Source: Acidimicrobiia bacterium (GTDB lineage Bacteria > Actinomycetota > Acidimicrobiia > Acidimicrobiales > Ilumatobacteraceae). From it: DNA of 18,254 bases. The stretch spans positions 1-18,254 of the forward strand of contig JAUHYJ010000009.1 of the NCBI GenBank assembly GCA_030425785.1, read 5' to 3'. The translations under genes were made by a program, and so were the position numbers. Positions 1,613 to 18,254 of the stretch are shown here, piece by piece (position 1 is the stretch's first letter; each line of letters opens with the position of its first letter). The notes under the pieces are model-generated. The model was not told where the DNA came from. It ran no database searches and was given only the letters and a program-made list of their open reading frames with translations.

Positions 1613-1650
1613 GTACCCGACGCCGGCGCGCCCGAAACCGTGCCCGGCGG

Positions 1651-1656: not shown

Positions 1657-1662
1657 CGACGC

Positions 1663-2760: not shown

Positions 2761-2776
2761 CCCACACGACGCTGCG

Positions 2777-2825
2777 TTCCGGTCGGACTCCCAGACGCCA
2801 ACCCGTCACACACCCCGCCCAGAAC
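2777..2825. repeat. 49-bp direct repeat, copy 1
   Basis: This copy begins TTCCGGTCGGACTCCCAGAC and ends ACACACCCCGCCCAGAAC. It matches copy 2 at 45 of 49 positions, and the copies start 62 bp apart. It lies in the gap between the convergent ligC and copCD genes. I saw no further copy in the window. It may be a member of a dispersed intergenic repeat family, or remains of a duplicated terminator. Confidence 0.8.
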
Positions 2826-2838
2826 CACCACCACCCCA

Positions 2839-2887
2839 TTCCGGTCGGACTCCCGGACACCCACCCGCCACACACCCCGCCCAGAAC
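2839..2887. repeat. 49-bp direct repeat, copy 2
   Basis: This copy begins TTCCGGTCGGACTCCCGGAC and ends with the same ACACACCCCGCCCAGAAC as copy 1. In this copy TCCGG and CCGGA can pair as a 5-bp stem around TCGGACTC; the stem is disrupted in copy 1. The minus strand over 2860-2882 has four G-runs close to a G-quadruplex pattern, with one loop of 8 nt. It ends 8 bp from the copCD stop codon. Confidence 0.8.
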
Positions 2888-2895
2888 GAGGACGG

Positions 2896-4845
2896 TCAGC
2901 CGCCGGGGGCCGTGGTGCCGGTGGTGTCGGTCGTGTCGGTGCTCGGCGCCGGCGTGGTGGGCGTCACGGCGAACGGGGCGGTCGTCGCGGTCGGGTCGAT
3001 CACCTCGACCGAGATGCTGGGCGCCTGGGTGACGACCGGCGTGGGCGTGGTGGCGACGGTGCCGTCGGCCTCCTCGATCCGGATCGTGGCGATCGCGTTG
3101 CTGATCGCGCCCTGCGGCGTGACCGCCTCGAGCTCGAGCGTCCAGTCGCCCGAGGCGAGCAGTGGCAGACCGTCGGCGGTCAGGCGGACGGCGGTGCCGG
3201 CACCGGTGAGCCGAATCGGTTGCTCGACGATGAACGCACCCTCCGCGGTCGCGGGCGGAGTCAGCCGCACGCGGACCCCGCTCAGCCCCTCGGCCGGTGC
3301 GTCGATCTCGACCTTGAGACCGTTCAGCCCGACGACCCCGGGGCCGACCGAGACCCGGGCCTGCAAGCCGGACGCGGGGTCGGTGAAGGCCACGGCCGGC
3401 AGGTAGTCCTCGCCGGCGAGCGGGTCGGCCTTGGCCGGTTCGAGTGACACGAGCCAGCCGCTGAACATCAGCACGACGACGCCGAGCGCGGCCTCGGCCG
3501 TGAAGGCCCGGCGGAACCGTTCGGCCAGGTTGACGGTCAGTTCGTGGGCGCGGTCGAGGCGCATCGCGACCTGCTGGCGCGCGGCGAGCGCGACGAACAG
3601 CATCGCGGCGACCACGACCGCCTTCAGCAGCACGACCCGCCCGTGACTGCTCGAGAACAGATCGCCGCCGTCGAGGCGGATCATCTGGGCGACGCCCGTG
3701 ACCGCGGTGAACAGCATCGCCGGCACGGAGATCTTGCCGAAGGCCTTGGTCGCCTGCACCAGATCGTCCTCGCCCGGGCCGGCCAGCACGACGCGCGCCA
3801 CGAGGGCGGCACCGCCGATCCAGATCGCGGCGGCGAACACGTGGACGATGCCGACGAGGAACCCGAGGAACGGGGCCGGGCCGTCGGTGCGGCTCATGGC
3901 CACCAGGATCAGGCCGAGGCCCGGGATGCCCCAGGCCCACATCGCCGTCGTCGGGTCGATGATGCGCTCGGGGCGCGTCACGACCCACCCGGACGCTGCG
4001 ACGACGACGAGCCGGAGGAGCGCGGCGCGACCGTCCCACCCCGCGTCGTAGAGCTCGAGCCAGCTCGACGGGCTGACCCCGTCACCGAACGATCCGGTCG
4101 TGACCTCGGCGGAGAACGCCATCAGATAGACCACGGTGCCCACGAGCCCGACCAGCCACACGAGTCGGAGGAAGCGCACCGTCACGATGTACTCCGGCCC
4201 TTCGGGCCATCCCACGCTGATGAGGGCGAGTGCGCCGAAGACGATGAGGATCGACATCGTCGACAGCATCCGGCCGAGCCACAGCGCGCCGTCGGTGCTG
4301 CCCTGTGACTCGACGTCGGCGACGGTCGAGGTCTGGGTCGGGGAGGCCGGCACCCGGACGAGCGGGTCGAGCGTCGTGCTCGTCACACCGTCGCCCGACG
4401 CCGGATCGGTGGCGGTGGCCGGTGGATCGTTCAGCACGGCGAAGGTCGTGCGGCCTTCGAGCAGGTTGTTCCCCTCGGCGTCACGCAGGAACCACGCGAG
4501 CGAGCACGTGCTGCGCGGCAGCGGGTTCGGGACGTCGAACGTGGCGATCAGGCCGTCGATGTCGACCTGGGCGATCCCGACCTCCTGGAACTCGAGGTCG
4601 CAGCTGAGCGTCACGACCGGCACCTCGGTGTTGCCGATCTCCTGGTTGAACACCAGGACGATCTCCTCGGGCGAGGTGTCGAGCGAGGCACCGTCTTCGG
4701 GGGTGATCGACTGGAGCGAGTTGGCGGTCTCCTGGGCGCGCACCGACCCGGCGACGCCGAGCACCGCCAGACACGCGACGACTGCGCCGAGGAGGAAGGG
4801 ACGGAGCGGGCCGGGGCGTGAGGGAACAAGGGTTCGAACACCCAC
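2896..4845 (-). CDS. CopC-CopD fusion membrane protein (copper resistance family, atypical)
   Basis: With a GTG start at 4845 the protein has 649 residues. A signal peptide covers about 1-37 (hydrophobic 17-33, then SVRAQ). A CopC-like beta domain spans about 43-139 (SITPEDGASLDTSPEEI, then NNLLEGRTTFAVL). A Ser/Thr-rich linker (141-185) leads to a CopD-type bundle of about eight helices (190-467) with the conserved GIVHVFAAAIWIGG (332-345, H335). An extracytoplasmic beta domain (about 485-592) and a Thr/Pro-rich tail of about 55 residues follow. CopC/CopD proteins handle periplasmic copper import or homeostasis. The CopC-like domain here contains no His and no Met, only C82 and C114, so the usual copper ligands are missing. 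An ATG at 4914 would add 23 residues, but the GTG has a -10 box 7 nt upstream and directly gives a signal peptide. Confidence 0.82.
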   Translation of the reverse strand: MGVRTLVPSRPGPLRPFLLGAVVACLAVLGVAGSVRAQETANSLQSITPEDGASLDTSPEEIVLVFNQEIGNTEVPVVTLSCDLEFQEVGIAQVDIDGLIATFDVPNPLPRSTCSLAWFLRDAEGNNLLEGRTTFAVLNDPPATATDPASGDGVTSTTLDPLVRVPASPTQTSTVADVESQGSTDGALWLGRMLSTMSILIVFGALALISVGWPEGPEYIVTVRFLRLVWLVGLVGTVVYLMAFSAEVTTGSFGDGVSPSSWLELYDAGWDGRAALLRLVVVAASGWVVTRPERIIDPTTAMWAWGIPGLGLILVAMSRTDGPAPFLGFLVGIVHVFAAAIWIGGAALVARVVLAGPGEDDLVQATKAFGKISVPAMLFTAVTGVAQMIRLDGGDLFSSSHGRVVLLKAVVVAAMLFVALAARQQVAMRLDRAHELTVNLAERFRRAFTAEAALGVVVLMFSGWLVSLEPAKADPLAGEDYLPAVAFTDPASGLQARVSVGPGVVGLNGLKVEIDAPAEGLSGVRVRLTPPATAEGAFIVEQPIRLTGAGTAVRLTADGLPLLASGDWTLELEAVTPQGAISNAIATIRIEEADGTVATTPTPVVTQAPSISVEVIDPTATTAPFAVTPTTPAPSTDTTDTTGTTAPGG

Positions 4846-4852
4846 GCCGTCC

Positions 4853-4858
4853 ACGGTA
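4853..4858 (-). promoter_or_regulatory. -10 box deciding the copCD start
   Basis: The minus strand reads TACCGT here, followed by 7 nt and then GTG at 4845. This is the spacing of a leaderless promoter. It argues for the GTG start and against the upstream ATG at 4914, which would put the promoter inside the coding sequence. Confidence 0.5.
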
Positions 4859-4922
4859 GCCAGCGGCGGTGCATCGGAGGGGACATGCCTCGCGCACGGC
4901 CGACGGCGGGACACCCACTCGG

Positions 4923-4928
4923 TAGGGT
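4923..4928 (+). promoter_or_regulatory. -10 box of dnaX
   Basis: TAGGGT ends 8 nt before the dnaX ATG at 4937. There is no Shine-Dalgarno sequence in the gap, so the transcript is probably leaderless or nearly so. The divergent copCD -10 box lies 64 bp away. Confidence 0.55.
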
Positions 4929-4936
4929 TGGCGGCG

Positions 4937-6790
4937 ATGGCAACCCAGTCGCTCTACCGCCGCTACCGGCCGCGCCGGTTCTCCGAGCTGAAGGGTCAGG
5001 ACCATGTCGTCAGGGCGTTGCGTGACGCCGTCGCACAGGGTCGCGAGGGCCAGGCCTACCTGTTCTCGGGGCCGCGCGGCACCGGCAAGACCACGTCGGC
5101 GCGCATCCTGGCCAAGGTGCTCAACTGCGACAACGTGGTCGACGGCGAGCCGTGCTGCATGTGCGAGTCGTGCAAGGCGGTCGAGTTGGGCACCAGCTAC
5201 GACGTGCACGAGCTCGACGCCGCGTCGAACAACGGCGTCGACGCGATCCGCGACCTGGTCGAGAAGGCGTCGCTCGGCACGCCGGGGCGCCACAAGGTGT
5301 ACATCCTCGACGAGGTCCACATGCTCTCGAAGGCGGCCGAGGCCGCGCTCCTGAAGACGCTCGAGGAGCCGCCGCCGCACGTGGTGTTCGTGCTGGCCAC
5401 GACCGATCCGCAGAAGATGAGCGACACGATCCGGTCGCGCACCCAGCACCTGCAGTTCCACCTGCTGCCGAGCGACACGCTGGCCGAGCACGTGAAGTGG
5501 GTGGCCGACGACGCCGGCTACGACCTGCCGCAGTCGGCGCTCGACGCCGCGCTCGAGCGTGGCGGTGGCTCCGCCCGCGACACGCTGTCGGCACTCGAGC
5601 TGCTGGCGTCGACCGGCGGCGACACCAGCGACATCATCGATCTCGACGAGTTCCTCGGTGCGCTGATCGATCGCGACCCGGGGCGCGTGCTCACCGCGAT
5701 GGGCCACGCGGTGTCGATGGGCCGCGATCCGCGCACGATCACCGAGGATCTGGTGCGGCACCTGCGCAACGCGTTCTTGTCGCTGATGGCGCCCGAACTG
5801 GTCGTGCTGCCGCCCGACCGGCTCGACGCGATCGCGGCCCGCGCCCACGAGCTCGGCGCCGCCGGCCTCGTGCGGGCGATCGAGCGGTTGGGTGAGGCGC
5901 TCGTCGACATGCGCCACGCGCCCGATCCGCGCATCCTGGTCGAGGTCGCGCTCGTCCAGCTGACCTCCGACCAGGCCGGTGGCGACGCGACGGCGTTCGC
6001 GGCCCGCATCGACCGCCTCGAGGCACAACTCGCCGAGCTGCGCGAGCGTGGCCCGGCGACGGCGGCCGCAGCGCCGCCACGCGACCCGCAGACCGGCCGG
6101 GCCAAGTTGGGTGGCGCCGCCACGCGTCCCGCGCCCGAACCGGCCGCAGCGCCGCCCGCCGACGAACCGGCACCTCCGGCCGCCGATGCACCGGCGACGC
6201 CCGCCGCCGACGGGACGGCCCCGGAACCCACACCGGCCGCACCCCCGGCCGCCGACCCGCCGCGATCGGTCGCGCCGGCCATGACGGTGCCCGAGGCGTG
6301 GTCGCACACCGTGAAGTCACAGCTGAAGGGGTTGGCACGGCCGCTCTTCGCGGCCGGTGAGTTCGTCGGCGAACGCGACGGCGAGTGGCTCTTCCAGGTG
6401 CCCAACGAGGCGCACGGCACGAAGTGCGAGGCCCACCGCGCCGATGTCGAAGCGGCGCTGTCCGCCGCGGTCGGCACCCCCGTCACGATCCGGATCGTGG
6501 CCGAGGGCGGCGCGGCACCGGCGGCCTCGGCCACTGCGCCGCCACCGGCGCCCGCCGCCGAGCCGGCCGCCGAACCGGCAGCACCGGCCGAGTCGCCGAT
6601 CGAGCGGGCGGCGCGGGCGGCGGCCGAGCAACCCGACGACGACGAGCCCGACGCGCCGGCCTACGTGCCACCCGACGACGACGAGGTCGACCTGTCCGAG
6701 CTCACCGATGCGCCGCCCGAGACGGTCAAGTCGCCGATCGACCGGCTGGCCGAGGCGTTCCCCGGCTCCGAGCTGATGCGCGACGACTGA
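4937..6790 (+). CDS. dnaX: DNA polymerase III subunit gamma/tau
   Basis: 617 residues; the AAA+ clamp-loader ATPase of the replicative polymerase. The start [18 protein letters not shown] is the canonical N-terminus. Walker A GPRGTGKT is at 45-52; the zinc-binding cysteines are C64, C73, C76 and C79; Walker B ILDEVH is at 123-128; sensor 1 LATTDP is at 153-158; and the arginine-finger motif is SRT (167-169), the form I know from Actinobacteria in place of SRC. The collar domain ends near residue 345, followed by an Ala/Pro-rich linker (about 375-448). A folded C-terminal domain (about 450-525) and an acidic, Ala/Pro-rich tail follow. No A-rich slippery site for a gamma product was seen. The upstream open frame reaches back to 4136, but the promoter and homology fix the ATG at 4937. 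recR follows after 1 nt. Confidence 0.97.
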
Positions 6791-6791
6791 C

Positions 6792-7400
6792 GTGGCACAC
6801 ACCTACACCCCTCCCGTCCAGGCGCTCATCGACGAACTCGGCCGGCTGCCGGGCATCGGCCCCAAGTCGGCCCAGCGGATCGCGTTCCACCTCCTCAAGA
6901 TCCCCGAGGACGACGCGAATCGGCTCGCCCACGCCATCCGCGAGGCCAAGGCGCGCGTTCGGTTCTGCGAGCGTTGTTTCAACGTCGCCGAGGACACCCT
7001 GTGCGGCTACTGCCAGGACGACCGTCGCGACTCGTCGATCATCTGCGTGGTCGAGGAGTCGCGCGACATCGTCGCCGTCGAGCGGACGGGCGAGTTCCGC
7101 GGTCGGTACCACGTCCTGCTGGGTGCGATGAGTCCACTCGAGGGGATCGGCCCCGAGCAACTCAAGATCCGCGAGCTGCTCAACCGACTCGGCCCGGAAG
7201 GGGTCGAGGAGGTCATCGTGTGCACGAACCCGAACACCGAAGGCGAGGTGACGGCGATGTACCTCGCCCGGATGCTGCAGCCGCTCGGCCTGCGGGTGAC
7301 GCGCATCGCGTCGGGGTTGCCGGTCGGCGGCGACCTCGAGTACGCCGACGAGCTCACCCTCGGGCGCGCCCTCGAGGGCCGGCGAGCCATCGACACCTGA
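6792..7400 (+). CDS. recR: Recombination mediator protein RecR
   Basis: 202 residues, the usual RecR size. Residues 10-35 hold the helix-hairpin-helix ([20 protein letters not shown]). The zinc finger is C59, C62, C71 and C74. The Toprim domain runs from about 83 ([19 protein letters not shown]) through [18 protein letters not shown], and the C-terminus has the Walker-like [26 protein letters not shown]. RecR works with RecF/RecO to load RecA on gapped DNA. The GTG start at 6792 lies 1 nt after the dnaX stop, so the two are translationally coupled. The ybaB/ebfC gene that usually sits between or beside them is missing. Confidence 0.97.
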
Positions 7401-7402
7401 TC

Positions 7403-7437
7403 ACGACGCCGATCTCGACGACGGCGTCAGGGTCGTG
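7403..7437. terminator. Hairpin between convergent recR and methyltransferase genes
   Basis: GACGCCG (7405-7411) pairs perfectly with CGGCGTC (7422-7428) around a 10-nt loop. The flanking CACGA and TCGTG (7433-7437) can extend the stem with a small bulge. It fills most of the 44-bp gap between two converging genes. There is no T-tract on either side, so termination would not be classical; function as a bidirectional terminator is inferred. Confidence 0.5.
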
Positions 7438-7444
7438 CCTGGCA

Positions 7445-8065
7445 CTACCCGTGACGGGCGACGACGGCGAGCACGGGGCCCGGCGCCTCGTGGCGGCTGA
7501 CGACGGCGTCGACGAGTCCGTGTTCGCGACAGGCGTCGGCGAACGCCTCGGCCTGCTCGGGCGTCCAGCCGTGGCCGGCGACACCCTCGGCGAGCGGGTC
7601 GTCGACCTGGCGCTCGATCGCCACGAAGCGGCCGCCCGGCGCGAGCAGCCGACCGACCTCCTCGAGACCACGGTCGATGTCGTGCCAGTGGTGGACCGTC
7701 GCGAGCGACCAGACGACGGTGGCCCAACCGGCGTCGACGGGCACCACCTCGGCGGTGCCGATGCGCCAGTCGATGCCACGGCGCAGCCAGCGCACCTTGG
7801 CGACCTGGAGCATCACCGATGCGGGGTCGACGCCGATCGCATCCGCACCCGCCTCGGCCGCCAGCGCGGCGGCGTAGCCGGGCCCGCACCCGATGTCGAC
7901 CAGGTGATCGCCGGCGCCGAGTTCGCCGAGATCGATCGCGAGCTGCGCGGCCTCGTGCCGCTTGAAGAGGAAGAACACCGCGGCCTTGAGACCGCTCAAC
8001 CCGGAGAATCCGGGGTGGTGCGCGTGGTGGTTGGGCGGGATCGCTGCGTCCGTCGCGGAGGTCAT
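7445..8065 (-). CDS. Class I SAM-dependent methyltransferase with His-rich N-terminus
   Basis: 206 residues from the ATG at 8065. Motif I VDIGCGPG is at 56-63, with the motif II acidic residue in GVDP (78-81). SLATVHHWHDIDRGLEEVGRLLAPGGRFV follows the post-III pattern of the Methyltransf_11/25 families. Residues 12-17 (NHHAHH) form a small histidine cluster before HPGFSGLSG. The substrate is not identifiable. The longer frame to 8173 would run across the divergent MerR promoter and start codon, so 8065 is preferred. A -10 box (CAAGGT) ends 7 nt before this ATG, and AGGTGA also sits at Shine-Dalgarno distance. The divergent MerR regulator probably controls it. Confidence 0.85.
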   Translation of the reverse strand: MTSATDAAIPPNHHAHHPGFSGLSGLKAAVFFLFKRHEAAQLAIDLGELGAGDHLVDIGCGPGYAAALAAEAGADAIGVDPASVMLQVAKVRWLRRGIDWRIGTAEVVPVDAGWATVVWSLATVHHWHDIDRGLEEVGRLLAPGGRFVAIERQVDDPLAEGVAGHGWTPEQAEAFADACREHGLVDAVVSRHEAPGPVLAVVARHG

Positions 8066-8072
8066 GGGCGTC

Positions 8073-8106
8073 ACCTTGACAGTTGAAGCCGGGTTCAGGT
8101 CAAGTG
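8073..8106. promoter_or_regulatory. Overlapping divergent promoters with MerR-type dyad and 19-bp spacers
   Basis: CTTGAC (8075-8080) and GTCAAG (8099-8104) are a perfect inverted repeat with an 18-nt centre. On the minus strand TTGACC (8103-8098), a 19-bp spacer and CAAGGT (8078-8073) give a promoter ending 7 nt before the methyltransferase ATG. On the plus strand TTGACA (8076-8081), a 19-bp spacer and CAAGTG (8101-8106) end 5 nt before the MerR ATG. A 19-bp spacer with a dyad inside it is the signature of MerR-activated promoters. The box positions are read directly; the regulatory link is inferred. Confidence 0.6.
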
Positions 8107-8111
8107 GTCGA

Positions 8112-8531
8112 ATGGGGAATTCCGAGCTGCCCTCGACGATCGGCGGCGTCGCCGCACTCGCCGGTGTCGCCACCTCGACGCTGCGCTACTACGACCGGCG
8201 GGGCCTGGTCTGCGCCGACGAGCGGGTCTCCGGCCAGCGGCGGTACGGACCGGCCACGATCCGCCGACTCGCCTTCGTGCAGATGCTCCAGGACGCCGGG
8301 CTCTCGCTCGACGACATCCAGGGCATCCTCGACGCCGAGGACAACTCGGCGTGGAAGGCGATCGCGACCGAACGCCTCGAGCGGCTGAACGACGAGATCG
8401 CACAGCTCGAACACGCCCGAGAGCTCCTGACCGCGGCACTGCTGTGCCGATTCGACCATCCGCTCGACGAGTGCCGGATCATGAACGACGAGATCGACCG
8501 CCGGCTCGGCCCGGGCGCCGGCCGGGGATGA
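8112..8531 (+). CDS. MerR-family transcriptional regulator
   Basis: 139 residues from the ATG at 8112. Residues 9-47 form the MerR winged helix (IGGVAALAGVATSTLRYYDRRGLV, then ERVSGQRRYG). Helices at 50-75 (TIRRLAFVQMLQDAGLSLDDI) are followed by a dimerisation coiled coil (about 80-107). The C-terminus has LCRFDHPLDECRIM with C112, H116 and C121, a possible metal or redox site; C34 is a third cysteine. The frame is open back to 7962, but that would overlap the divergent methyltransferase, and the family N-terminus starts here. Such regulators bind the long spacer of their target promoter and untwist it; the dyad just upstream fits self-regulation and control of the methyltransferase. The ligand is unknown. 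Confidence 0.9.
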   Translation: MGNSELPSTIGGVAALAGVATSTLRYYDRRGLVCADERVSGQRRYGPATIRRLAFVQMLQDAGLSLDDIQGILDAEDNSAWKAIATERLERLNDEIAQLEHARELLTAALLCRFDHPLDECRIMNDEIDRRLGPGAGRG

Positions 8532-8552
8532 CCGGCCGGCGCATCGGTGCCG

Positions 8553-8628
8553 GAAAACAATACGAGGCACTGCCTTCACGAACCGATAGCGGGCGGACGG
8601 GTCGGTTCGATCGGGCAATGCCTCGTAT
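8553..8628 (-). terminator. Long two-stem hairpin, probable terminator of the thiolase transcript
   Basis: Outer arms 8560-8574 (ATACGAGGCACTGCC) and 8614-8628 (GGCAATGCCTCGTAT) pair over 15 bp with one mismatch. After symmetric 4-nt internal loops, CGAACCGA (8579-8586) and TCGGTTCG (8602-8609) pair perfectly around a 15-nt loop. Read on the minus strand, the structure is followed by TTGTTTTCC, a T-rich tract, so it can work as an intrinsic terminator for the thiolase gene, which ends 80 bp before it. The stem is much longer and more symmetric than needed, so a mobile-repeat or RNA role is also possible. Confidence 0.6.
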
Positions 8629-8691
8629 ATGTCAGTTACGTTACGAACATGACGGAACAGTGTCAACCACCGACATGTGAATTCTCGCCCA

Positions 8692-8709
8692 ATCACCCGG
8701 ACGGGTGAT
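8692..8709. repeat. Perfect short inverted repeat at the thiolase stop codon
   Basis: ATCACCCG (8692-8699) and CGGGTGAT (8702-8709) are perfect inverted copies separated by GA, equivalent to a 7-bp stem with a 4-nt loop. It touches the stop codon of the thiolase gene. There is no T-tract, so it may stabilise the mRNA 3' end or assist the larger hairpin downstream. Confidence 0.6.
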
Positions 8710-9890
8710 CAGACCGTCTTGACGATCAGTGCGTCGCCCTGGCCACCGCCGCCGCAGAGCGCAGCGGCGCCGACCCCGCCGCCACGCCGGCGCAGCTCGT
8801 GCAGCAGCGTCAGGGCGAGGCGGTTGCCGCTCATGCCGATCGGGTGACCGAGGGCGATCGCACCGCCGTTCACGTTGACGACGTCCATCGAGATGCCGAG
8901 CTCACGGGCCGATGCGATGCCGACGGCGGCGAACGCCTCGTTGAGCTCGAACAGCGACAGGTCGGCGACGTCGAGGTCGGTCTTGGCGAGCGCGGTGCGG
9001 ATCGCGTTGGCCGGCTGCAGGTTGAGCGACGGGTTGTCGGGTCCGGCCACCATGCCGTAGCCGACGACCTCGCCGAGCGGCGACACACCGGCGGCCTCGA
9101 CCGCCCGCTTCGACATCATCACGACCGCCGACCCGCCGTCGGAGATCTGCGAGGCGTTGCCGGCGGTGATCGTGCCATCGGCGACGAACGCCGGGCGGAG
9201 CTTGCCGAGGCTCTCGGCGGTGGTGCCCGGGCGGACCCCCTCGTCGTCCTCGACCAGGATCGGGTCGCCCTTGCGCTGCGGGATCGAGATCGGTGCGATC
9301 TCCTCGGCGAGGATGCCGTCCTTGATCGCCTTGGCGGCGCGCTCGTGCGACTCGGCCGACACCTCGTCCATCTCGGCTCGGCTGATGCCGTCGCCGGTGT
9401 ACCCGTCGGTCGCCGTCCCCATCAGGCAGGCGTCGAACGAGCACCACAGCCCGTCGGTGATGATCGTGTCCTGCAGCTCGGTGTGGCCGTAGCGGAACCC
9501 GGCACGGGCGCCCGGCGCGAGGTACGGCGCGTTCGTCATCGACTCCATGCCGCCGGCGACGACGATGTCGGCGTCGCCGCTCGCGATCATCTGGTCGGCG
9601 AGGTAGATCGCATTGAGGCCCGACAGGCAGACCTTGTTGACGTTCACCGACGGCACGCTCATGGGGATGCCGGCCTTGGACGCGGCCTGACGCGCGGGTA
9701 CCTGGCCCTGCCCGGCCATGAGCACCTGGCCCATGATCACGTGCTCGACCTGGTCGGCCCCGACGCCGGCGCGTTCGAGTGCGGCAGCGATCGCGTGGCC
9801 GCCGAGATCGGCGGCGGACAATGCGGTGAGCGCGCCCGACATCTTCCCGATGGGAGTGCGGGCACCGGCGACGATGTACGAACCAGGCAT
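8709..9890 (-). CDS. Acetyl-CoA C-acetyltransferase (thiolase)
   Basis: 393 residues, the standard length of biosynthetic-type thiolases. C88 in VNKVCLSGLNAI is the acylated nucleophile, H349 in GGAIALGHPIG the general base and C379 in CGGGGQGDA the proton-shuttling cysteine. MESMTNAPYL and GNASQISDGGSAVVM are further family blocks. It condenses two acetyl-CoA, or cleaves acetoacetyl-CoA. It fits chemically upstream of the butyryl/ethylmalonyl-CoA flux handled by Ccr about 4 kb away, though the two are not in one operon. The frame is open to 9995, but MPGSYIVAGARTPIGK is the family N-terminus and a -10 box lies 7 nt before its ATG (9890). It is divergent from the EamA gene. Confidence 0.95.
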   Translation of the reverse strand: MPGSYIVAGARTPIGKMSGALTALSAADLGGHAIAAALERAGVGADQVEHVIMGQVLMAGQGQVPARQAASKAGIPMSVPSVNVNKVCLSGLNAIYLADQMIASGDADIVVAGGMESMTNAPYLAPGARAGFRYGHTELQDTIITDGLWCSFDACLMGTATDGYTGDGISRAEMDEVSAESHERAAKAIKDGILAEEIAPISIPQRKGDPILVEDDEGVRPGTTAESLGKLRPAFVADGTITAGNASQISDGGSAVVMMSKRAVEAAGVSPLGEVVGYGMVAGPDNPSLNLQPANAIRTALAKTDLDVADLSLFELNEAFAAVGIASARELGISMDVVNVNGGAIALGHPIGMSGNRLALTLLHELRRRGGGVGAAALCGGGGQGDALIVKTV

Positions 9891-9897
9891 GGCCGCG

Positions 9898-9903
9898 ACG
9901 CTA
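9898..9903 (-). promoter_or_regulatory. -10 box of the thiolase gene
   Basis: The minus strand reads TAGCGT, followed by 7 nt and the ATG at 9890. It has leaderless spacing and no Shine-Dalgarno sequence, and it fixes the start downstream of the longer open frame. Confidence 0.5.
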
Positions 9904-9957
9904 CCGCGGGGTAACCCGACCATGCGAACGCTGCCCGTCGCGCCGGCGCCGGGCCCG

Positions 9958-9963
9958 TAGGGT
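9958..9963 (+). promoter_or_regulatory. -10 box of the EamA transporter gene
   Basis: TAGGGT, identical to the dnaX box, ends 9 nt before the ATG at 9973. No Shine-Dalgarno sequence is seen. It forms a divergent pair with the thiolase box 54 bp away. Confidence 0.5.
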
Positions 9964-9972
9964 GCGGATCCG

Positions 9973-10875
9973 ATGATCGCCGGCCTGACACCCAACGCGT
10001 CGGGCGTGATCTACATGACGCTCTGGTCGCTCGCCTACGTGGTCAACGACGGGCTGGTCCGGTTGGCCACCGAGGAGGGGCTCGACGTCTACCAGGTGCT
10101 GTTCCTGCGCGGCTGCGGCATGGTGGCGATCTTCGCGGCCTGGAGCGCCTCGGGCACCCGGCGTCTCCGGCGCCGACACCTCACCGCGCCGCTCGTGACC
10201 CGGGTCGCGGCCGAGGTCGTCAGCACGGCGTGCTTCTTCGCCGCGCTCGTCCGACTCGAGTTCGCGAACGCACAGACGATCCTGATGCTGGTGCCGTTCG
10301 CGGTGACCCTGGTGGCGGCGGTGACGCTCGGCGAACAGGTCGACCGCGTGCGCTACGCGCTCGTCGCGGTGGGCTTCGCCGGGGTCGTCGCGGTCGCGCG
10401 ACCGGTCCCGTCGCAGTTCTCGGCGTGGTCGTTGATGGTCGTCGCCGCCGCTGCCGGGCTCGTCGTGCGCGAGTTCGCCACTCGGCGGGTCGAGGCATCG
10501 ACACCACCGGTCCCGATCGCGCTCCTGACCGCCGTCGCCATCACGTCGATGATGGGCGTCATCTCGGCCATCGCCGGGTGGGGTGCCGTCACGGCACGCG
10601 CGATCGTCATCATGGCGTTGGCGTGTCTGTGCCTGGTGGCGGGCTACGTGTTCGTCATCCAGGCGGCCCGCATCGGCGACCTCAGCGTGTCGGCGCCGTT
10701 CCGCTACACGACCGTCGTCGGCGCCGTCGCGGTCGGCATCGTGATGTTCGACGAGGTGCCCGACGCGCTCACCATCGCCGGCTGCACGCTCATCGTCGGC
10801 GCCGGCGTGGCGAGTGCTCGCCGCGACGCGTCCGCAGCGTCTCGTCCTCCTCGACACGGAGTCGCGGCAGACTGA
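9973..10875 (+). CDS. EamA/DMT-family membrane transporter
   Basis: 300 residues with about ten hydrophobic helices arranged as two EamA repeats. The first repeat ends with the conserved EFANAQTILMLVPFAVTLVAAVTLGEQVDRVRYALVAVGFAGVV (about 93-136). The second ends with IGDLSVSAPFRYTTVVGAVAVGIVMFDEVPDALTIAGCTLIVGAGV (about 235-280), where a charged residue in GE or DE precedes the final helices as is typical of the family. These proteins move amino acids, nucleobases or other small metabolites; the substrate cannot be told. The Arg/Ala-rich tail is cytoplasmic. The ABC ATPase gene starts 5 nt after its stop, so co-transcription is likely. Confidence 0.88.
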   Translation: MIAGLTPNASGVIYMTLWSLAYVVNDGLVRLATEEGLDVYQVLFLRGCGMVAIFAAWSASGTRRLRRRHLTAPLVTRVAAEVVSTACFFAALVRLEFANAQTILMLVPFAVTLVAAVTLGEQVDRVRYALVAVGFAGVVAVARPVPSQFSAWSLMVVAAAAGLVVREFATRRVEASTPPVPIALLTAVAITSMMGVISAIAGWGAVTARAIVIMALACLCLVAGYVFVIQAARIGDLSVSAPFRYTTVVGAVAVGIVMFDEVPDALTIAGCTLIVGAGVASARRDASAASRPPRHGVAAD

Positions 10876-10880
10876 CCGGC

Positions 10881-11789
10881 ATGTCGTTGGAGGTCCGCGA
10901 GGTCATGCAGGCGTTCGAGGGGCGCCGCGTGCTCGACGGCGTCGACCTCACCGTGCCGGCCGGGTCGGTCGTCGGGCTGCTCGGCCCGAACGGCGCGGGC
11001 AAGACGACGCTGATGCGCATCGTGTTCGGCGTGCTCGAACCCGACGCCGGCGAGGTGCGTTGGGACGGGCGGACAGCCGGCGACGCGGACCGGCGACGGT
11101 GGGGCTACATGCCCCAGGAGCGCGGGCTGTACCGCGAGATGCGCGTCCACGACCACCTCGTCTGGATCGCCCGGCTCTACGGCGTCGACCGCAAGCAGGC
11201 GGCCGACTACGCCGACGACCTGCTCGATCGGCTCGGCCTCGCCGACCGGTCGCGCGACGCGATCCGTGATCTGTCGGGTGGCATGGCGCAGCGCGTGCAG
11301 TTGGCGGTGGCGATGGTCCATCGACCCGAGCTCCTCGTCCTCGACGAGCCGTTCGCCGGCCTCGACCCGGCCGCCGTCGAGTTCCTGATGGCGGTCATCC
11401 GCGACCACGTCGCCGGCGGCGGGCACCTCGTGTTCTCGAGCCACCAACTCGACCTGGTCGAGGACCTGTGCGACACGATCGCACTCATCGACGGCGGCCG
11501 GGTCGTGCTCGAGGGGTCGCTGCGCGAGCTGCGGTCGGCGAGCGAGCGACGGGCGTTGCGGGTCGACGTCGACGTCGACCCGCGCTGGCTCGACGGACAA
11601 CCCGTCGGCGACGTGGCGACGACGGCATCCGGCAGCCGCGTCGCGCTCGAGCCGGGTGCCGAGGCGGCGACGGTGCTCGACGCCATCCGATCACACACCG
11701 ACGTGTCCGACTTCGGGGTCGAGGCGCCGAGCCTGTCCGAGCTGTTCCGGGCCGCGACGGGCCGGGCGGTCGAGGACGCGGGCGCATGA
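10881..11789 (+). CDS. ABC exporter ATP-binding subunit (NatA-like)
   Basis: 302 residues. Walker A GPNGAGKT is at 35-42, the Q-loop Q79 in YMPQERGLY, signature LSGGMAQ at 131-137, Walker B LLVLDEP at 151-157 and the switch histidine H188 in FSSHQLD. The region after residue 215 is the DUF4162-like C-terminal domain seen in NatA-type and drug-export ATPases, ending SLSELFRAATGR. The start follows the EamA stop by 5 nt; the longer frame upstream is the EamA gene read out of frame. Its stop overlaps the permease start (ATGA), so the pair is translationally coupled. NatA/NatB export sodium in Bacillus; the substrate here is not proven. Confidence 0.92.
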   Translation: MSLEVREVMQAFEGRRVLDGVDLTVPAGSVVGLLGPNGAGKTTLMRIVFGVLEPDAGEVRWDGRTAGDADRRRWGYMPQERGLYREMRVHDHLVWIARLYGVDRKQAADYADDLLDRLGLADRSRDAIRDLSGGMAQRVQLAVAMVHRPELLVLDEPFAGLDPAAVEFLMAVIRDHVAGGGHLVFSSHQLDLVEDLCDTIALIDGGRVVLEGSLRELRSASERRALRVDVDVDPRWLDGQPVGDVATTASGSRVALEPGAEAATVLDAIRSHTDVSDFGVEAPSLSELFRAATGRAVEDAGA

Positions 11790-12931
11790 CGTTCCGCTCG
11801 ACGCTCCTGGTCATCGAACGCGAGCTGCGCGAGGCGGCGCGCCGCAAGGGTCTGTGGCTGCTCGCGATCGGCATGTTCCTGGGGTCGTGCGCCATCGTGT
11901 TCCTTCCCGACCTGCTGGCCGACGACGGCCCCGGCGAGGCGACGGTGATGGTCGCCGGCGACGACGAGGTCGGCGTGGCCGCGGCGCTGGGCGAGGTCGA
12001 CGATCCCGTGATCGAGGTCACGAGCGGCGACGACCGGACGGCCGTCGTCGACGCGGTCGAGCAGGGAGACGCAGATCTCGGCGTCCTCCTCTCCGGCGCC
12101 TCCTCGACGCTGATCGTCGACGATCCCGACACCGGACTCGTCGACCTCGTCGCCGGCGTGGTCGCGGAGACCTCGGCCGCCGATCGGCTCGACGGCGCCG
12201 GCATCGATCCGGCCGAGGTCGAGGCGGCGTTCGCAGCCGCCAGCCCGGCGATCGAGCCGGTCGACGTCGAGCGCGGCGACCGCGAGGCGGCGGCGTTCAT
12301 CGTGATGCTCGTGCTGTACCTGCTGACGGTGATCCTGACGTCACAGATCGCAAGTGCCGTCGCGGTCGAGAAGTCGAACCGCGTCAGCGAGGTCCTGCTG
12401 GCGATCGTGCCGCCCCGCGCCCTGCTGTTCGGCAAGGTGATCGGCATCGGGTGCATCGGGGTCGTGACCCTCGGCTTGGTCGCCGTGCCGGTGATCGTCG
12501 ACCTCGCCAGAGGCGCGACCTTGCCGTCGGGGATCGGCGTCTCGATGCTCGCCTCGGCGATCTGGTTCGTCGGCGGGCTGGCGCTCTATCTGATCGTCGC
12601 CGGCGCGCTGGGCGCGCTCGTGTCGCGCCAGGAGGAGGTCGGGGCGTTGGTCGTGCCGCTCACGATGGTGCTCGTCGCGGCCTACTTCGCCACGATCTCG
12701 TTCGGTGACGGACCGGCCGGCGCGGTGCTGTCGTACATCCCGTTCACGTCGCCGATGAGTGTGCCGTACCGCATCGGCGTCGGCGCCGGGTCGCCCGTCG
12801 AGTACGTGGTGTCGGCGCTGCTGCTCGTCGTGGCGGTCGCCGTGGCCGCCCGCCTCGGATCGGTCGTGTTCCGTCGTGCCGTGGTTCGCACCGGGCGGCG
12901 CCTGTCGTTGCGCGACGTCCTGGGGCGCTGA
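11786..12931 (+). CDS. ABC-2 type exporter permease (NatB-like)
   Basis: 381 residues, beginning at the ATG that overlaps the stop of the ATPase by 4 nt. One N-terminal helix (about 22-40) is followed by a large extracytoplasmic domain rich in Asp, Gly and Val (about 45-165). Then come five or six helices (about 170 to 360), with the ABC2_membrane_3 signature AVEKSNRVSEVLLAIVPPRALLFGKVIGIG (about 192-221). The tail VRTGRRLSLRDVLGR is typical of NatB-like proteins. It forms the membrane channel partner of the preceding ATPase. It converges with the tetR gene, leaving 6 bp, with no visible terminator hairpin in that gap. Confidence 0.9.
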   Translation: MTFRSTLLVIERELREAARRKGLWLLAIGMFLGSCAIVFLPDLLADDGPGEATVMVAGDDEVGVAAALGEVDDPVIEVTSGDDRTAVVDAVEQGDADLGVLLSGASSTLIVDDPDTGLVDLVAGVVAETSAADRLDGAGIDPAEVEAAFAAASPAIEPVDVERGDREAAAFIVMLVLYLLTVILTSQIASAVAVEKSNRVSEVLLAIVPPRALLFGKVIGIGCIGVVTLGLVAVPVIVDLARGATLPSGIGVSMLASAIWFVGGLALYLIVAGALGALVSRQEEVGALVVPLTMVLVAAYFATISFGDGPAGAVLSYIPFTSPMSVPYRIGVGAGSPVEYVVSALLLVVAVAVAARLGSVVFRRAVVRTGRRLSLRDVLGR

Positions 12932-12937
12932 ACCGCC

Positions 12938-13585
12938 TCAGGTCAGCATGCGCAGCGCGAAGTCGGCGTAGGTGGCGGCGAGTTCGTCGGGCGCCACGCT
13001 GCCGGCCGGGTTGTACCAGGCCGACACGCCGATGCCCATGTCGAGGATCGCGTACGACGACCACCGGTCGGACGAGGTGTGGAACACGTCGCGCTCGCGC
13101 CCTTCCTGGACGAGCTCGCGGAAGTTCGACTCGTACTCGCGTCGCAGCTCGAGGATCCGGCTGCGCTCGGGTTCTTCGAGGCTGTCGATCTCGCGGTGAC
13201 CGACGAACGCTTCGTAGCGGTGCTCGGCGTGGTACTGGACGTGGACGGCGACGATCCGTTCGAGCCGCTCGCGTACGTCGCCACCGGCGTCGAGCGCGGC
13301 GCGCTGGCGACGCAGCAGCTCGGTCATCATGCCGGCCATGATCTCGACGAGCATCTCCTGCTTCGACGCGACGTGCTTGTAGAGGCTCGGTCCGCGGATG
13401 CCGAGTCGGTCACCGATCTGGGCCATCGTCGTGGCCCGGTAGCCGATGGTGGCGAACAGCTCGAGCGCGGCGTCGAGGATCTCACCGTGGCGGTCGGGCG
13501 GGGTGCGATGGGACGCATCGGCCCCGTTCGCCGCCACGCTCGGGACGTGGCTGCGGCCGGCGGCGGGGCGCTCTCGGGTCGACAT
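12938..13585 (-). CDS. TetR-family repressor (probable regulator of ccr)
   Basis: 215 residues from the ATG at 13585. The helix-turn-helix domain is at 34-79 (GEILDAALELFATIGYRATT, then MAQIGDRLGIRGPSLYKHVASKQEML). The helical ligand domain (about 80-215) has the pattern ERIVAVHVQYHAEHRYEAFVGHRE and AILDMGIGVSAWYNPAGS, resembling the KstR2-type subgroup that senses acyl-CoA thioesters. An ATG at 13630 would start inside an operator and place the -10 box in the coding region, so 13585 is preferred. Two near-identical palindromes lie between it and ccr and overlap the predicted promoter elements of both genes, which indicates autoregulation and ccr control. The effector assignment is inference. 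Confidence 0.9.
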   Translation of the reverse strand: MSTRERPAAGRSHVPSVAANGADASHRTPPDRHGEILDAALELFATIGYRATTMAQIGDRLGIRGPSLYKHVASKQEMLVEIMAGMMTELLRRQRAALDAGGDVRERLERIVAVHVQYHAEHRYEAFVGHREIDSLEEPERSRILELRREYESNFRELVQEGRERDVFHTSSDRWSSYAILDMGIGVSAWYNPAGSVAPDELAATYADFALRMLT

Positions 13586-13593
13586 CGAGCGAC

Positions 13594-13599
13594 ACCATA
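13594..13599 (-). promoter_or_regulatory. -10 box of tetR
   Basis: The minus strand reads TATGGT, followed by 8 nt and the ATG at 13585. The -35 region 17-18 nt upstream falls inside operator 1 (13617-13636), consistent with self-repression. Confidence 0.55.
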
Positions 13600-13616
13600 A
13601 CCCCGATCCGGCCGTC

Positions 13617-13636
13617 CGGCTAACACTCATTAGCCG
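13617..13636. promoter_or_regulatory. TetR operator 1
   Basis: CGGCTAACACTCATTAGCCG is a perfect 7-bp inverted repeat with a 6-nt centre. Its reverse complement matches operator 2 over the outer 8 bases on each side. It covers the predicted -35 regions of both tetR and ccr. Confidence 0.85.
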
Positions 13637-13644
13637 CGACGCGC

Positions 13645-13650
13645 TAGTGT
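13645..13650 (+). promoter_or_regulatory. Predicted -10 box of ccr
   Basis: TAGTGT lies between the two operators. The expected start of transcription, about 13657, falls inside operator 2, so a bound repressor would block it. This gives a leader of about 37 nt, consistent with the visible ribosome binding site. Confidence 0.45.
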
Positions 13651-13651
13651 C

Positions 13652-13671
13652 CGGCTAATCATCGTTAGCCG
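13652..13671. promoter_or_regulatory. TetR operator 2
   Basis: CGGCTAATCATCGTTAGCCG has the same arms as operator 1, CGGCTAA and TTAGCCG, around a 6-nt centre. The two sites are centred 35 bp apart. It covers the predicted transcription start of ccr. Confidence 0.85.
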
Positions 13672-13681
13672 CCTCACCCAC

Positions 13682-13685
13682 GGAG
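13682..13685 (+). promoter_or_regulatory. Ribosome binding site of ccr
   Basis: GGAG lies 8 nt before the ATG at 13694. It stands out because most other genes in the window lack a Shine-Dalgarno sequence and appear leaderless. Confidence 0.6.
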
Positions 13686-13693
13686 CGACTCCC

Positions 13694-15028
13694 ATGCAGC
13701 ACATCCTCGAAGCCATCCAGTCCGGTGCGTCCGGCGACGACATCGCCGCCCTCACGATCCCCGAGTCGTACCGCGCCGCGTTCGTGCTGCGCGAGGAGAC
13801 GGGGATGTTCGAGGGCATGGCGTCGGCCGACAAGGACCCGCGCAAGTCGCTCCACGTCGACGAGATCGCGACCCCCGAGCTCGCGCCCGACGAGGTCTAC
13901 CTCGCGGTGATGGCGAGCTCGATCAACTTCAACACGGTCTGGACGTCGATCTTCGAGCCGCTGCCGACGTTCGGGTTCCTCGATCGGCTCGCCCGCGAGT
14001 CCGAGATCGCGAAACGGCACAGCCAGCCGTTCCACGTGGTCGGCTCCGACGCGTCGGGCGTGGTGTTGCGAGTCGGCGAGGCCGTGCGCAACTGGAAGCC
14101 GGGCGATCGGGTCACGGTGCACTGCAACCACGTCGACAGCCAGGACCACAGCGCCCACAACGACTCGATGCTGGCGAACAACCAGCGCATCTGGGGGTTC
14201 GAGACGAACTACGGCGGCCTTGCCGACCTGTCGGTGGTCAAGGCCAACCAGCTGATGCCCAAGCCGACCCATCTGTCGTGGGAGGAGGCGGCGGTCAACG
14301 CCCTGTGCAACTCGACGTCGTACCGGATGCTCGTCAGCGAGAACGGCGCCAACATGAAGCAGGGCGACTCGGTGCTGGTGTGGGGCGCGACCGGCGGCAT
14401 CGGTGGGTACGCGGTGCAGTACGTGTTGAACGGTGGCGGCACGCCGATCGGCGTGGTGTCGTCGGCCGAGCGGGCGCAGCTGCTCAACGACATGGGTGTC
14501 GAGGCGGTGATCGACCGCAAGGCCGAGGGCTACCAGTTCTGGTCGGACGAGCACACCCAGGACGAGTCCGAGTGGCGGCGGTTCGGCAAGAAGATCCGCG
14601 AGCTGACGGGCGAGGACCCCGACATCGTGTTCGAACACCCGGGTCGCTCGACGATGGGCGCCTCGGTGTTCGCGGTGAAGCGCGGCGGCACCGTGGTGAC
14701 CTGCGCGGCGACGTCGGGCTACATGGTCGAGTTCGACAACCGCCACTTCTGGATGAAGCTGAAGAAGCTGATCTCGTCGCACTTCGCCAACTACGAAGAG
14801 GCGTGGGCCGCGAACAAGCTGATCGACCAGGGCCGCATCCATCCGATCATGAGCGATGTGTTCACGCTGGACCAGGTCGGCGAGGCGACGCTGGCGATGC
14901 ACCACAACCAGGCCGAGGGCAAGCTCGGCGTGCTGTGCCTCGCTCCCGAGGAGGGCCAGGGCATCGACGACGCCGAGAAGCGCGACCGCATCGGCGAGGA
15001 CAACATCACCCGTTTCCGCACTCGCTGA
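13694..15028 (+). CDS. ccr: Crotonyl-CoA carboxylase/reductase
   Basis: 444 residues, full length for the family. It reductively carboxylates crotonyl-CoA to ethylmalonyl-CoA with NADPH and CO2, the key step of the ethylmalonyl-CoA pathway and a source of extender units. The fold is a zinc-free medium-chain reductase. N80 in INFNTVW and F169-E170 in WGFETNYGG correspond to the CO2-pocket residues known as N81, F170 and E171 in the Kitasatospora enzyme. The conserved His of SSHFANYEEA is H363. The NADPH site is VWGATGGIGGYAVQY (229-243). It follows the divergent TetR gene and two operators, has a GGAG site, and no other ethylmalonyl-CoA pathway gene is in the window. Identification is firm; the pathway role depends on genes elsewhere. 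Confidence 0.95.
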   Translation: MQHILEAIQSGASGDDIAALTIPESYRAAFVLREETGMFEGMASADKDPRKSLHVDEIATPELAPDEVYLAVMASSINFNTVWTSIFEPLPTFGFLDRLARESEIAKRHSQPFHVVGSDASGVVLRVGEAVRNWKPGDRVTVHCNHVDSQDHSAHNDSMLANNQRIWGFETNYGGLADLSVVKANQLMPKPTHLSWEEAAVNALCNSTSYRMLVSENGANMKQGDSVLVWGATGGIGGYAVQYVLNGGGTPIGVVSSAERAQLLNDMGVEAVIDRKAEGYQFWSDEHTQDESEWRRFGKKIRELTGEDPDIVFEHPGRSTMGASVFAVKRGGTVVTCAATSGYMVEFDNRHFWMKLKKLISSHFANYEEAWAANKLIDQGRIHPIMSDVFTLDQVGEATLAMHHNQAEGKLGVLCLAPEEGQGIDDAEKRDRIGEDNITRFRTR

Positions 15029-15052
15029 CCTGCGTTTCCACCTCGGTTCCGC

Positions 15053-15058
15053 CATCCT
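15053..15058 (+). promoter_or_regulatory. Possible -10 box of msrB
   Basis: CATCCT ends 6 nt before the ATG at 15065. It fits the relaxed nAnnnT form and leaderless spacing but lacks the initial T, so this is a weak call. msrB could instead be read from the ccr transcript 36 bp upstream. Confidence 0.3.
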
Positions 15059-15064
15059 GGTGAC

Positions 15065-15481
15065 ATGGCCGACACGTCGAGCACCCCGAACGTCCCCACC
15101 ACCGACGAGCTCAAGCTGAAGCTCACGCCGATGCAGTTCCACGTCACCCAGGAAGCCGGCACCGAGCGACCGTTCACGGGCGAGTACTGGGATACGAAGG
15201 AGCCCGGCACGTACCACTGCATCGTGTGCGACACCGAGCTGTTCGACTCCGACACGAAGTACGACTCGCACTGCGGGTGGCCGAGCTTCTACGACGCGCT
15301 CGACACCGACAAGATCGAGTACCTCGAGGACAACACGCTCGGGATGCGCCGCGTCGAGGTCCGCTGCAAGAACTGCGGCGCCCACCTCGGCCACATCTTC
15401 CCCGACGGCCCCCAGCCGACCGGCCAGCGCTACTGCATCAACTCCGCCAGCCTGAACCTCGTCAAGCGCCCCACCGGCTGA
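15065..15481 (+). CDS. msrB: Peptide-methionine (R)-S-oxide reductase
   Basis: 138 residues, the normal MsrB length. It repairs methionine-R-sulfoxide in proteins. The structural zinc cysteines form two CxxC pairs, C52/C55 and C101/C104. The catalytic cysteine is C124 in [10 protein letters not shown]70 in SHCGWPSF is at the place of the resolving cysteine. The motifs [18 protein letters not shown] and [13 protein letters not shown] are hallmark MsrB blocks. No signal peptide, so it is cytoplasmic. It starts 36 bp after ccr on the same strand and may be co-transcribed with it, although a weak -10-like box precedes it. MsrA is not in the window. Confidence 0.96.
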
Positions 15482-15547: not shown

Positions 15548-16768
15548 ATGGATCGCGTCATGGATCGCATCATCCTCGTCCACGGCACATGGGGCCGCCG
15601 ATCGGGCTGGACCTTCCCCGACAGCGCGCTGCACGCGCGCCTCGGCACCGAGTTCCCCGACGCGAAGGTCGAGCGGTTCGAGTGGTCGGGCAAGAACCGG
15701 CACCGCGCCCGCGCCGAGGCAGCCGCCGAGCTCGGCCGGCACATCGACGCAGAACCGGCAGGCCATGTCGTGCTCGTCGGGCACAGCCACGGCGGCAGCG
15801 TCGCCGAGCGCACCTTGATCCATCGCGGCTGGGGGCGCGCCGACGGCGAGCGTGACGACGTCGGCGCGGTCACCGTCGGAACGCCGTTCCTCCACTTCCA
15901 TCGCAACGTCGGCAGCCCGGTGCCCGTGCTCGACTGGGTCCGGATGGCGATCTGCCTGGGCGGCATCGTGGCCGGCGTCCTCCTGCTCGGGGGTCAGGTC
16001 TCCGCCGACGTCGAGCCGGTCGTCGTCGACGGCGAGTTCGGCCCGCCCACCGAACTCAACGACTTCTCGGTCGGTCTCGCGTTCACGACGTGGATCGCGC
16101 TCGGCATCGCAGCGATCCCCCTGCTCGTGCTGCTGCTGTTCCACGCGGCGTTGTTGATCGGTCGCGTCGACGAGGTCAACGCACCGCTCTCACCGTTCCC
16201 CGGACAGCGGGTCGCGACACTCCAGGTGATCCGAACCCGGCGCGACGAGGCCGCCGGACTCCTGCGGTTCGGCCGGCTGATGGGTGGCGCCGTCGACCTC
16301 ACACGGCGCTTCGGGTCCGCGCCGGCCGCGCTCCTCGGCGTCATGGCCATCGTGCTCATCGTGCTCGGCAACGACATCAGCGACACCGAGGACACGACCT
16401 CCGGGTCACCATTCGAGGTCGCCGCGGCGCTGCTGCAGGTCTTCCTCGCGGACAACGTCAGCGGGACAGCGGCGGCCGAGATCACGACGATCCTGTTCGC
16501 GACGCTCGTGTTCGTCGGTGTCGCCGGGATCCTGCTCACCCAGTTCGCCGTCGCCGAGGCGCTGCTGTGCGGCACCGACGGCGGCCGTCTGCTCCGCCGG
16601 GGTCGCGTCCGCATCGACGGCGTCCCGAACGCCGACGACCACCAGGAGACCGTCGTCGCCCTCACCACGAAGCGATTCGGATTGCGGCACTCGCGGCTGA
16701 TGTCCGACCCCGCTTCGGTCGACGCCATCGTGGCCGCGTGCCGAGCACAGCTGGACGAGTCCGCCTGA
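15548..16768 (+). CDS. Alpha/beta hydrolase with inserted transmembrane helices
   Basis: 406 residues from the ATG at 15548; a second ATG at 15560 gives a 402-residue version. The N-terminal part is an alpha/beta hydrolase: IILVHGTWG (8-16) with an HG oxyanion segment, then [10 protein letters not shown] (74-83) with nucleophile S80, then VGTPFL (110-115). Four predicted membrane segments follow at about 131-150, 177-205, 259-275 and 313-340. The C-terminal end regains soluble character and carries H381 in [20 protein letters not shown], the usual context of the catalytic His. The hydrolase fold therefore appears to be interrupted by a membrane insertion between Ser and His. The catalytic acid is not clear. 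Function is unknown; a membrane-bound lipase or esterase is the reasonable guess. A possible -10 box TACCGT lies at 15530-15535. Confidence 0.75.
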
Positions 16769-16788: not shown

Positions 16789-18254
16789 ATGGCAACGACG
16801 GTCGACTGGGGTGAGCGCGAGCGGCGGCTGACCGAACACGTGTCGGTGCTCGTCGGCGAGGCGAACGGCAAGTACCCGTCCGGCAACACGCTGGTCGTGC
16901 GCGGCGACGGCGAGGCGGTCGTCATCGACCCGTCCGTCGACGTCGTCGCGATGGGTGGCGCGCCCGTGCCGGTCGACGCCGTCATCAACTCCCACAGCCA
17001 CGAAGACCACATGCCCGGCAACGGCTTCTTCACCGAGGCCCGCCTCCACATCCATCACGAGGATCTCCCCGGCGCCCGATCGCTCGACGGGCTGATGGAC
17101 GTGTACGGGCTCGACGGCCAGCCACGCGCCGACTTCTCCGAGCAGGTCGTCGAGGAGTTCCACTACGCCCCACGTCCCGACGCCGAGGGCTTCGCCGACG
17201 GCCACTCCTGGGATCTGGGTCGGGTACAGATCGACGCCGTCCACCTGCCCGGCCACACCCGTGGCCACTGCGGCTTCCGGATCTCGGGCGGCGTGTTCTT
17301 CCTCTCCGACATCGACCTGACCGGCTTCGGCCCCTACTACGGCGACGCCTGGAGCGACCTCGATCAGTTCGAGGAGAGCCTGCGCTGCGTGCGCGACGAA
17401 GAGGCCGCCTACTACGTGACCTTCCACCAGAAGGGCGTGATCGAAGGGCGCGCGGACTTCCTGGCGCGCCTCGACGCGTTCGCGGAGGTGATCGAGCGCC
17501 GGCACGGCGCGATGCTCGCGTTCCTCTCGGAGCCGCGCTCGATCGAAGAGATGGTCGTGCACCGCTTCGTCTACCGGCCGACCGCCGAGACGCCGATCGC
17601 CGACGCCGTCGAGTGGGGCAGCGGCAACCCCGACATCACCCCGGCGCAGCTCGTGTCGAACAGCTCCGGTCTCGTCGGGCAGAACCCGAACCCGTTCATC
17701 GGACAGCCGCCGTTCGTGCCGCCGTCGTTCAACCCGACCAACGGGTCGATCGCGGGAGCCGCCAAACCGATCTACATCAACTTCCAGCGACCGATCGCAA
17801 ACCGGCAGATGGCTCAGGACGCCGTTCATATCACGTCGAATCCGCCGGTACCGGGACGTTTTTATTGGGTCACCGACACCCAGCTGCGTTGGCGGCCCCA
17901 GGACTTCTGGCCAGCGGGCACAGTCGTGCACATCGACGCTGCCGGCACCAAGTCGAGTTTCAGCGTCCCCGAGCAACTCGTCGCGACGATCGACAACTCA
18001 ACCCTTGAGATGGAAGTCATGCGCAATGGGGTGTTGGAGAAGACCTTCCCGGTCTCGCTGGGGAAGAAGGGCTACGAGACCAAAAACGGCACCTACTACG
18101 TGCTCGAGAAGTTCGCCGAGATGGTGATGGACTCATCCACCTATGGCGTACCGATCACCGATGCCGAGGGCTACAAGCTCGAGGTGGATGATGCGGGGCG
18201 GATCGACAACAGCGGCGTCTGCGTGCACAGCGCGCCCTGGTCGGTCGGCGCCCA
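16789..18254 (+). CDS. Metallo-beta-lactamase-fold hydrolase joined in frame to an L,D-transpeptidase (open at right edge)
   Basis: One uninterrupted frame of 488 codons with no stop before the window end. Residues 1 to about 275 are a cytosolic metallo-beta-lactamase-fold protein: HSHEDH (69-74) is the HxHxDH metal motif, H156 in PGHTRGH the next ligand, D174 in FLSDID the bridging aspartate and H213 in TFHQKG the last histidine. After VVHRFVYRP (257-264) the family sequence stops, and from about residue 277 the protein reads as a mycobacterial-type L,D-transpeptidase. There is no signal peptide at the N-terminus and no membrane helix between the parts, although L,D-transpeptidases act outside the membrane. 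The two halves therefore do not make functional sense as one protein. Confidence is high for each half and low for a natural fusion. Confidence 0.8.
17614..18254 (+). other. L,D-transpeptidase portion (lacks N-terminus and, within the window, the catalytic motif)
   Basis: Residues about 277-318 form an Asn/Pro-rich linker ([20 protein letters not shown]) like that found after the signal peptide in mycobacterial L,D-transpeptidases. An Ig-like domain follows at about 319-393 ([19 protein letters not shown], then [21 protein letters not shown]). The YkuD domain starts near 395 ([55 protein letters not shown]). The window ends just before the expected SHGC catalytic cysteine motif. Such enzymes make 3-3 peptidoglycan crosslinks outside the membrane. 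Its signal peptide is missing because the frame begins inside another gene. From about 17760 codons such as AAA, GTT, CAT, TTT, TAT, AGT and CTT become more frequent than in the rest of the window. Confidence 0.85.

Follow-up and report, generated by a model that had tools for sequence, protein, structure and literature searches.

A three-gene patchwork in one open reading frame at the end of an Ilumatobacteraceae contig probably reflects a chimeric contig end

Results

The last open frame of the contig combines parts of three genes

The window, meaning the whole stretch of DNA that we analyzed, is an entire contig (C425) of 18,254 bases. It belongs to a fragmented metagenome-assembled genome (MAG) of 4.42 Mb in 857 contigs, estimated to be 83.3% complete and 4.72% contaminated. 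Pfam assigned ordinary genes to positions 341-15481, encoding an MFS transporter, an ATP-dependent DNA ligase, a CopC/CopD-like protein, DnaX-like and RecR proteins, a thiolase, a TetR regulator, a zinc-binding dehydrogenase, and SelR. A 406-amino acid frame without a Pfam match at E≤1e-5 follows on the + strand (15548-16768), between the SelR gene and a hydrolase gene. A SelR (methionine sulfoxide reductase) stretch also lies near the hydrolase in 10 of 19 family loci examined, and the contig therefore looks genuine up to the hydrolase.

From the ATG at 16789, a single open frame of 488 codons runs on the + strand to the contig end. Pfam recognized three domains in it: Lactamase_B (PF00753, residues 32-186, E = 1.9e-09), Big_10 (residues 313-384, E = 4.2e-22), and YkuD (residues 399-484, E = 5.4e-09), the last matching profile positions 4-107 of 146. 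A sequence-only reading of this DNA had described one in-frame join between a metallo-hydrolase and an L,D-transpeptidase. Both partners are indeed present in one frame, but they are separated by two joins rather than one. The last 1.5 kb of the contig consists of parts of three distinct genes, with both joins located 574-674 bases before the contig end (Table 1).

Table 1 Features of the terminal open frame, in window coordinates
Feature	Position	Strand	Basis
MBL-fold hydrolase, residues 1-264, without C-terminal tail	16789..17580	+	Lactamase_B (1.9e-09); alignment
Join 1 zone, codons assignable with certainty to neither hydrolase nor serine hydrolase	17581..17613	+	Residue matches
CubicO/class-C beta-lactamase-type serine hydrolase (PF00144) piece, about 30 residues	17593..17680	+	DNA and protein matches
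Join 2, at most 5 bases common to serine-hydrolase and transpeptidase relatives	17676..17680	+	DNA identity limits
L,D-transpeptidase piece (linker, Big_10, part of YkuD), ended by the contig end	17677..18254	+	Big_10, YkuD, homologues
Residues 470 and 478, departures from near-invariant residues	18196..18222	+	120 homologues

The first piece is a metallo-hydrolase without its C-terminal tail

The best homologue of the hydrolase part (P0002) shares 81% identity over residues 1-264. Its relatives are proteins of about 303 amino acids; four of the best 120 listed are named Ilumatobacter sp., and most carry no genus name. The sequence HSHEDH at residues 69-74, which we take to be the HxHxDH metal motif of the Lactamase_B fold, is invariant across an eight-row alignment. 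Residues 1-264 align end to end with Ilumatobacter-type metallo-beta-lactamase (MBL)-fold, glyoxylase-like metallo-hydrolases (PF00753), whereas the usual C-terminal tail is swapped in the window for sequence of other genes. A tail of 27 residues after position 276 is found in 104 of 120 homologues, and other sequence stands here, in agreement with the earlier suggestion that the hydrolase lacks its C-terminal end. A DNA search of the own genome revealed a second hydrolase copy on another contig (C22), matching window positions 17289-17623.

A serine-hydrolase fragment lies between the two joins

The sequence-only reading had placed its join at 17600-17650 and had interpreted the codons within a dozen of residue 264 as the start of a transpeptidase linker. 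Neither assignment held. Two places on contig C592 of the same MAG match window positions 17593-17693 at 80-83% DNA identity, and the gene tested there encodes a class-C beta-lactamase/CubicO serine hydrolase (PF00144, 2.2e-31). A protein search with residues 264-304 alone (E≤1) returned 79 proteins, all 79 with PF00144, so the region proposed for the join lies inside a third gene piece that had been overlooked. Most of the best hits match at 76-91% over about 30 residues up to SSGLVG. The full catalytic domain is absent from the 488-codon frame, in which Pfam did not call PF00144.

The piece matches CubicO/class-C serine hydrolases of Ilumatobacter-type genomes as far as SSGLVG, after which those enzymes continue with L or I, whereas the transpeptidase takes over in the window. 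A motif pattern matched 78 of the 79 PF00144 proteins (P0306 gave no match, and P0259 matched falsely, at a site nearer its N-terminus). In the remaining 77, SSGLxG is followed by L or I and never by Q, the residue of the window.

Two simpler descriptions were considered and rejected. A genuine linker at 17600-17676 was discarded given the match of this stretch to PF00144, and a simple two-part join was discarded given that the sequence between the joins belongs to a third gene family.

On C592 itself, positions 3639-7847 (L003/L004) hold two adjacent CubicO-type genes of 430 and 374 amino acids that point the same way and look like a tandem duplication.

The third piece is a truncated mycobacterial-type L,D-transpeptidase

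From residue 297 on, the transpeptidase part is 98% identical to the protein P0122, and its DNA is 91% identical to a locus (L029) of a MAG named 'Actinomycetes bacterium'. Searching the two halves separately, as had been proposed, gave hydrolase relatives with Ilumatobacter names on one side and, on the other, a transpeptidase family in which 35 of the 40 named loci are from Mycobacterium or Mycolicibacterium. The other five are from two Actinomycetes MAGs, Nocardia, Speluncibacter, and Nocardiopsis. Position 298 is Q in all 120 transpeptidase homologues.

Like mycobacterial L,D-transpeptidases (Big_10 and YkuD, about 330-345 amino acids), the window piece has both domains; unlike them, it has no N-terminal signal region and ends before the catalytic motif. 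The earlier reading had remarked on the missing signal region, and the homologues bear this out: all 120 have 27-119 residues ahead of the join, 93 being the commonest number. The signal region and the motif SHGCIN, presumably the catalytic motif of L,D-transpeptidases, are found in aligned relatives and not in the window frame, where the motif would fall past the contig end. In the L029 locus (3241-3818), the transpeptidase has an in-frame stop codon in the linker relative to the family.

A drift toward A/T-ending codons after about 17760 had also been noted, and we observed the same shift. The G+C content at third codon positions (GC3) was 0.928 in the hydrolase, 0.839 in the transpeptidase piece as a whole, and 0.823 after 17760. 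The drop becomes visible only past 17760 owing to the high GC3 of positions 17677-17760 (0.929), which accounts for the offset noted in the earlier reading.

Match limits define both joins and bear on a recombination origin

We then examined how sharply the matches to each partner end. In blastn, matches to hydrolase loci stopped within 17546-17623. Of the 39 transpeptidase loci shown, 34 began to match at 17673-17680, and five more distant ones began later. This clustering of match limits indicates that the joins are not due to chance.

At join 1, residues 265-266 match none of 120 hydrolases, although T265 or PI at 269-270 appears in two loci of the wider hydrolase family (L020 and L025). 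The string ADAVE occurs in both partners, and up to 23 bases (17591-17613) could be common to the two unseen donor alleles if both agreed with the window there. Join 2 is tighter. The closest serine-hydrolase copy agrees with the window base for base as far as 17680, and 33 transpeptidase loci (those readable by pattern among the 38 loci L029-L066) are identical to it from 17676 (10 loci), 17677 (8 loci), or 17680 (15 loci).

An overlap of 4-5 bases is a size that microhomology joins in cells can have. Join 2 thus suits a real recombination scar, in which an Ilumatobacter-type cell would have taken up mycobacterial DNA and joined it illegitimately through a serine-hydrolase fragment, leaving a broken three-part chromosomal gene; the resemblance of the serine-hydrolase piece to genes of the same MAG points the same way. 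Such a scar would require a donor of a different class and two joins no more than about 100 bases apart. A search of the MAG with the full transpeptidase P0122 found no other transpeptidase match, and a search with the 7-kb locus L029 found no near-identical mycobacterial flank, the window stretch being the sole close match, though the contig stops before the far flank. Nine other matches of L029 to the MAG, at 70-74% identity, were taken as conserved genes. Together with the probable base errors at the contig end described below, these observations make a recombination scar improbable.

The same arrangement is confined to the window in the genomes searched

The sequence-only reading had proposed looking for the same domain pair in other genomes; we found none among the best 120 of 5406 protein hits or in 220 other genomes of the family. 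A protein search with the whole frame, scoring the 8000 candidates that shared most words, returned these 5406 hits, of which the best 120 listed cover 52-58% of the query. A protein spanning all three pieces would be expected to outscore them.

Among 221 family genomes, the own genome included, 52 matched the frame (at most seven candidates scored per genome, E≤1e-10). Hydrolase matches stopped by residue 290, or by residue 312 in one genome (G129) in which the alignment crosses a stop. The serine-hydrolase match, present in 12 other family genomes, started at 266-267 and ended no later than 332. No match outside the window covered the transpeptidase domains in these 221 genomes, none of the 220 others reaching that far. 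In two relatives assembled as single contigs (G102 and G110), the hydrolase and serine-hydrolase genes lie on opposite strands with over 250 kb between them. At the DNA level, a search for sequence across either join, allowing up to three mismatches, hit one of 397 genomes of the order, namely the own genome only.

These searches bear on whether the frame could encode a true new fusion enzyme, a metallo-hydrolase tethered to a cell-wall transpeptidase with both parts working. The 488-codon frame is unbroken through both joins and carries three recognizable Pfam domains, as such an enzyme would. Against this, coverage stays at or below 58% among the best 120 listed of the 5406 hits, the hydrolase has lost its tail and the transpeptidase its N-terminus, and what lies between them is only part of a third enzyme. 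We consider a working fusion the most far-fetched of the explanations. Its fuller version is just as hard to credit: an Ilumatobacter lineage would have captured a peptidoglycan-crosslinking transpeptidase from a mycobacterium and, by illegitimate recombination, fused a metallo-hydrolase to it with a serine-hydrolase fragment as the seam. If true, an enzyme of the beta-lactamase fold would be tethered to one that works on the cell wall.

The contig end shows signs of base errors

Across residues 297-488, the window differs from sites with at least 95% agreement at residues 470 and 478 only. The homologues agree in 120 of 120 cases at both, and both sites lie inside the last 59 bases of the contig. 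These departures are probably base errors at the contig end, of the kind that thin, uncorrected coverage would give; such thin coverage may itself apply here.

The second hydrolase copy also lies near a contig end. On C22, the hydrolase fragment (88% identical to P0002) loses its frame and its family match about 104 bases from the end. We searched for the extra piece in 10 genus genomes, Pfam, and PDB, and no PDB match was better than E = 0.23. The other strand gave a weak Pfam hint of FAD_binding_2 (E = 0.097), and a 50%-identity match to another contig (C52) was taken as chance. C22 is possibly a second chimeric contig end, although this is suggestive only.

Discussion

We interpret the frame at 16789-18254 as a chimeric contig end produced by a sequencing or assembly error, a reading to which we give a probability of roughly 93%. 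It is favored by three gene families from two source lineages, abrupt limits of DNA matching, the location at a contig end, and the absence of a spanning homologue from the searches made. With three loci of two lineages packed into about 100 bases, an origin in a cell is unlikely, and the count of two joins and three loci lowers the likelihood of one clean fusion event further. The earlier ranking, with a chimera ahead of recombination and a true fusion last, agrees with the two lineages, the lack of a spanning homologue, the joins near the contig end, and the probable base errors.

Under the chimeric reading, three separate genes would have been patched together: a metallo-hydrolase of Ilumatobacter type, a serine hydrolase contributing about 30 residues, and an L,D-transpeptidase of mycobacterial type. 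The metagenome assembler most likely accepted hybrid DNA molecules or reads where coverage was presumably thin; the joins would then date from library preparation or assembly rather than from a living cell. Join 2 likely entered as a hybrid molecule rather than through k-mer collapse, because the five or fewer shared bases are too short for a normal k-mer overlap. For join 1, either a hybrid or an assembly-graph error may apply, the latter being allowed because the overlap there may reach 23 bases. The protein encoded by this frame is not expected to exist.

Several points count against the chimeric reading. The frame stays open through both joins; two random joins would allow this by chance in about 1 in 9 cases, and selection for a fusion would account for it. 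Because the hydrolase and serine-hydrolase pieces match genes of one bacterial family, join 1 taken by itself could have arisen in a genome. The overlap at join 2 is too short for a plain k-mer misassembly. According to the GUNC study (PMC8201837), moreover, misassembly is a relatively rare problem in MAGs next to mis-binning.

The chimeric contigs of MAGs described in that study likewise bring fragments from more than one lineage together in a single contig by error. GUNC, as described there, works on genes assigned along contigs, and it could overlook a chimera confined to a single terminal gene. The patchwork itself has little biological significance. It has some value as a caution: ORF calling and domain annotation accept an in-frame chimera from three sources in a contig's last gene as a believable multi-domain enzyme, and such a chimera could enter databases as a false fusion.
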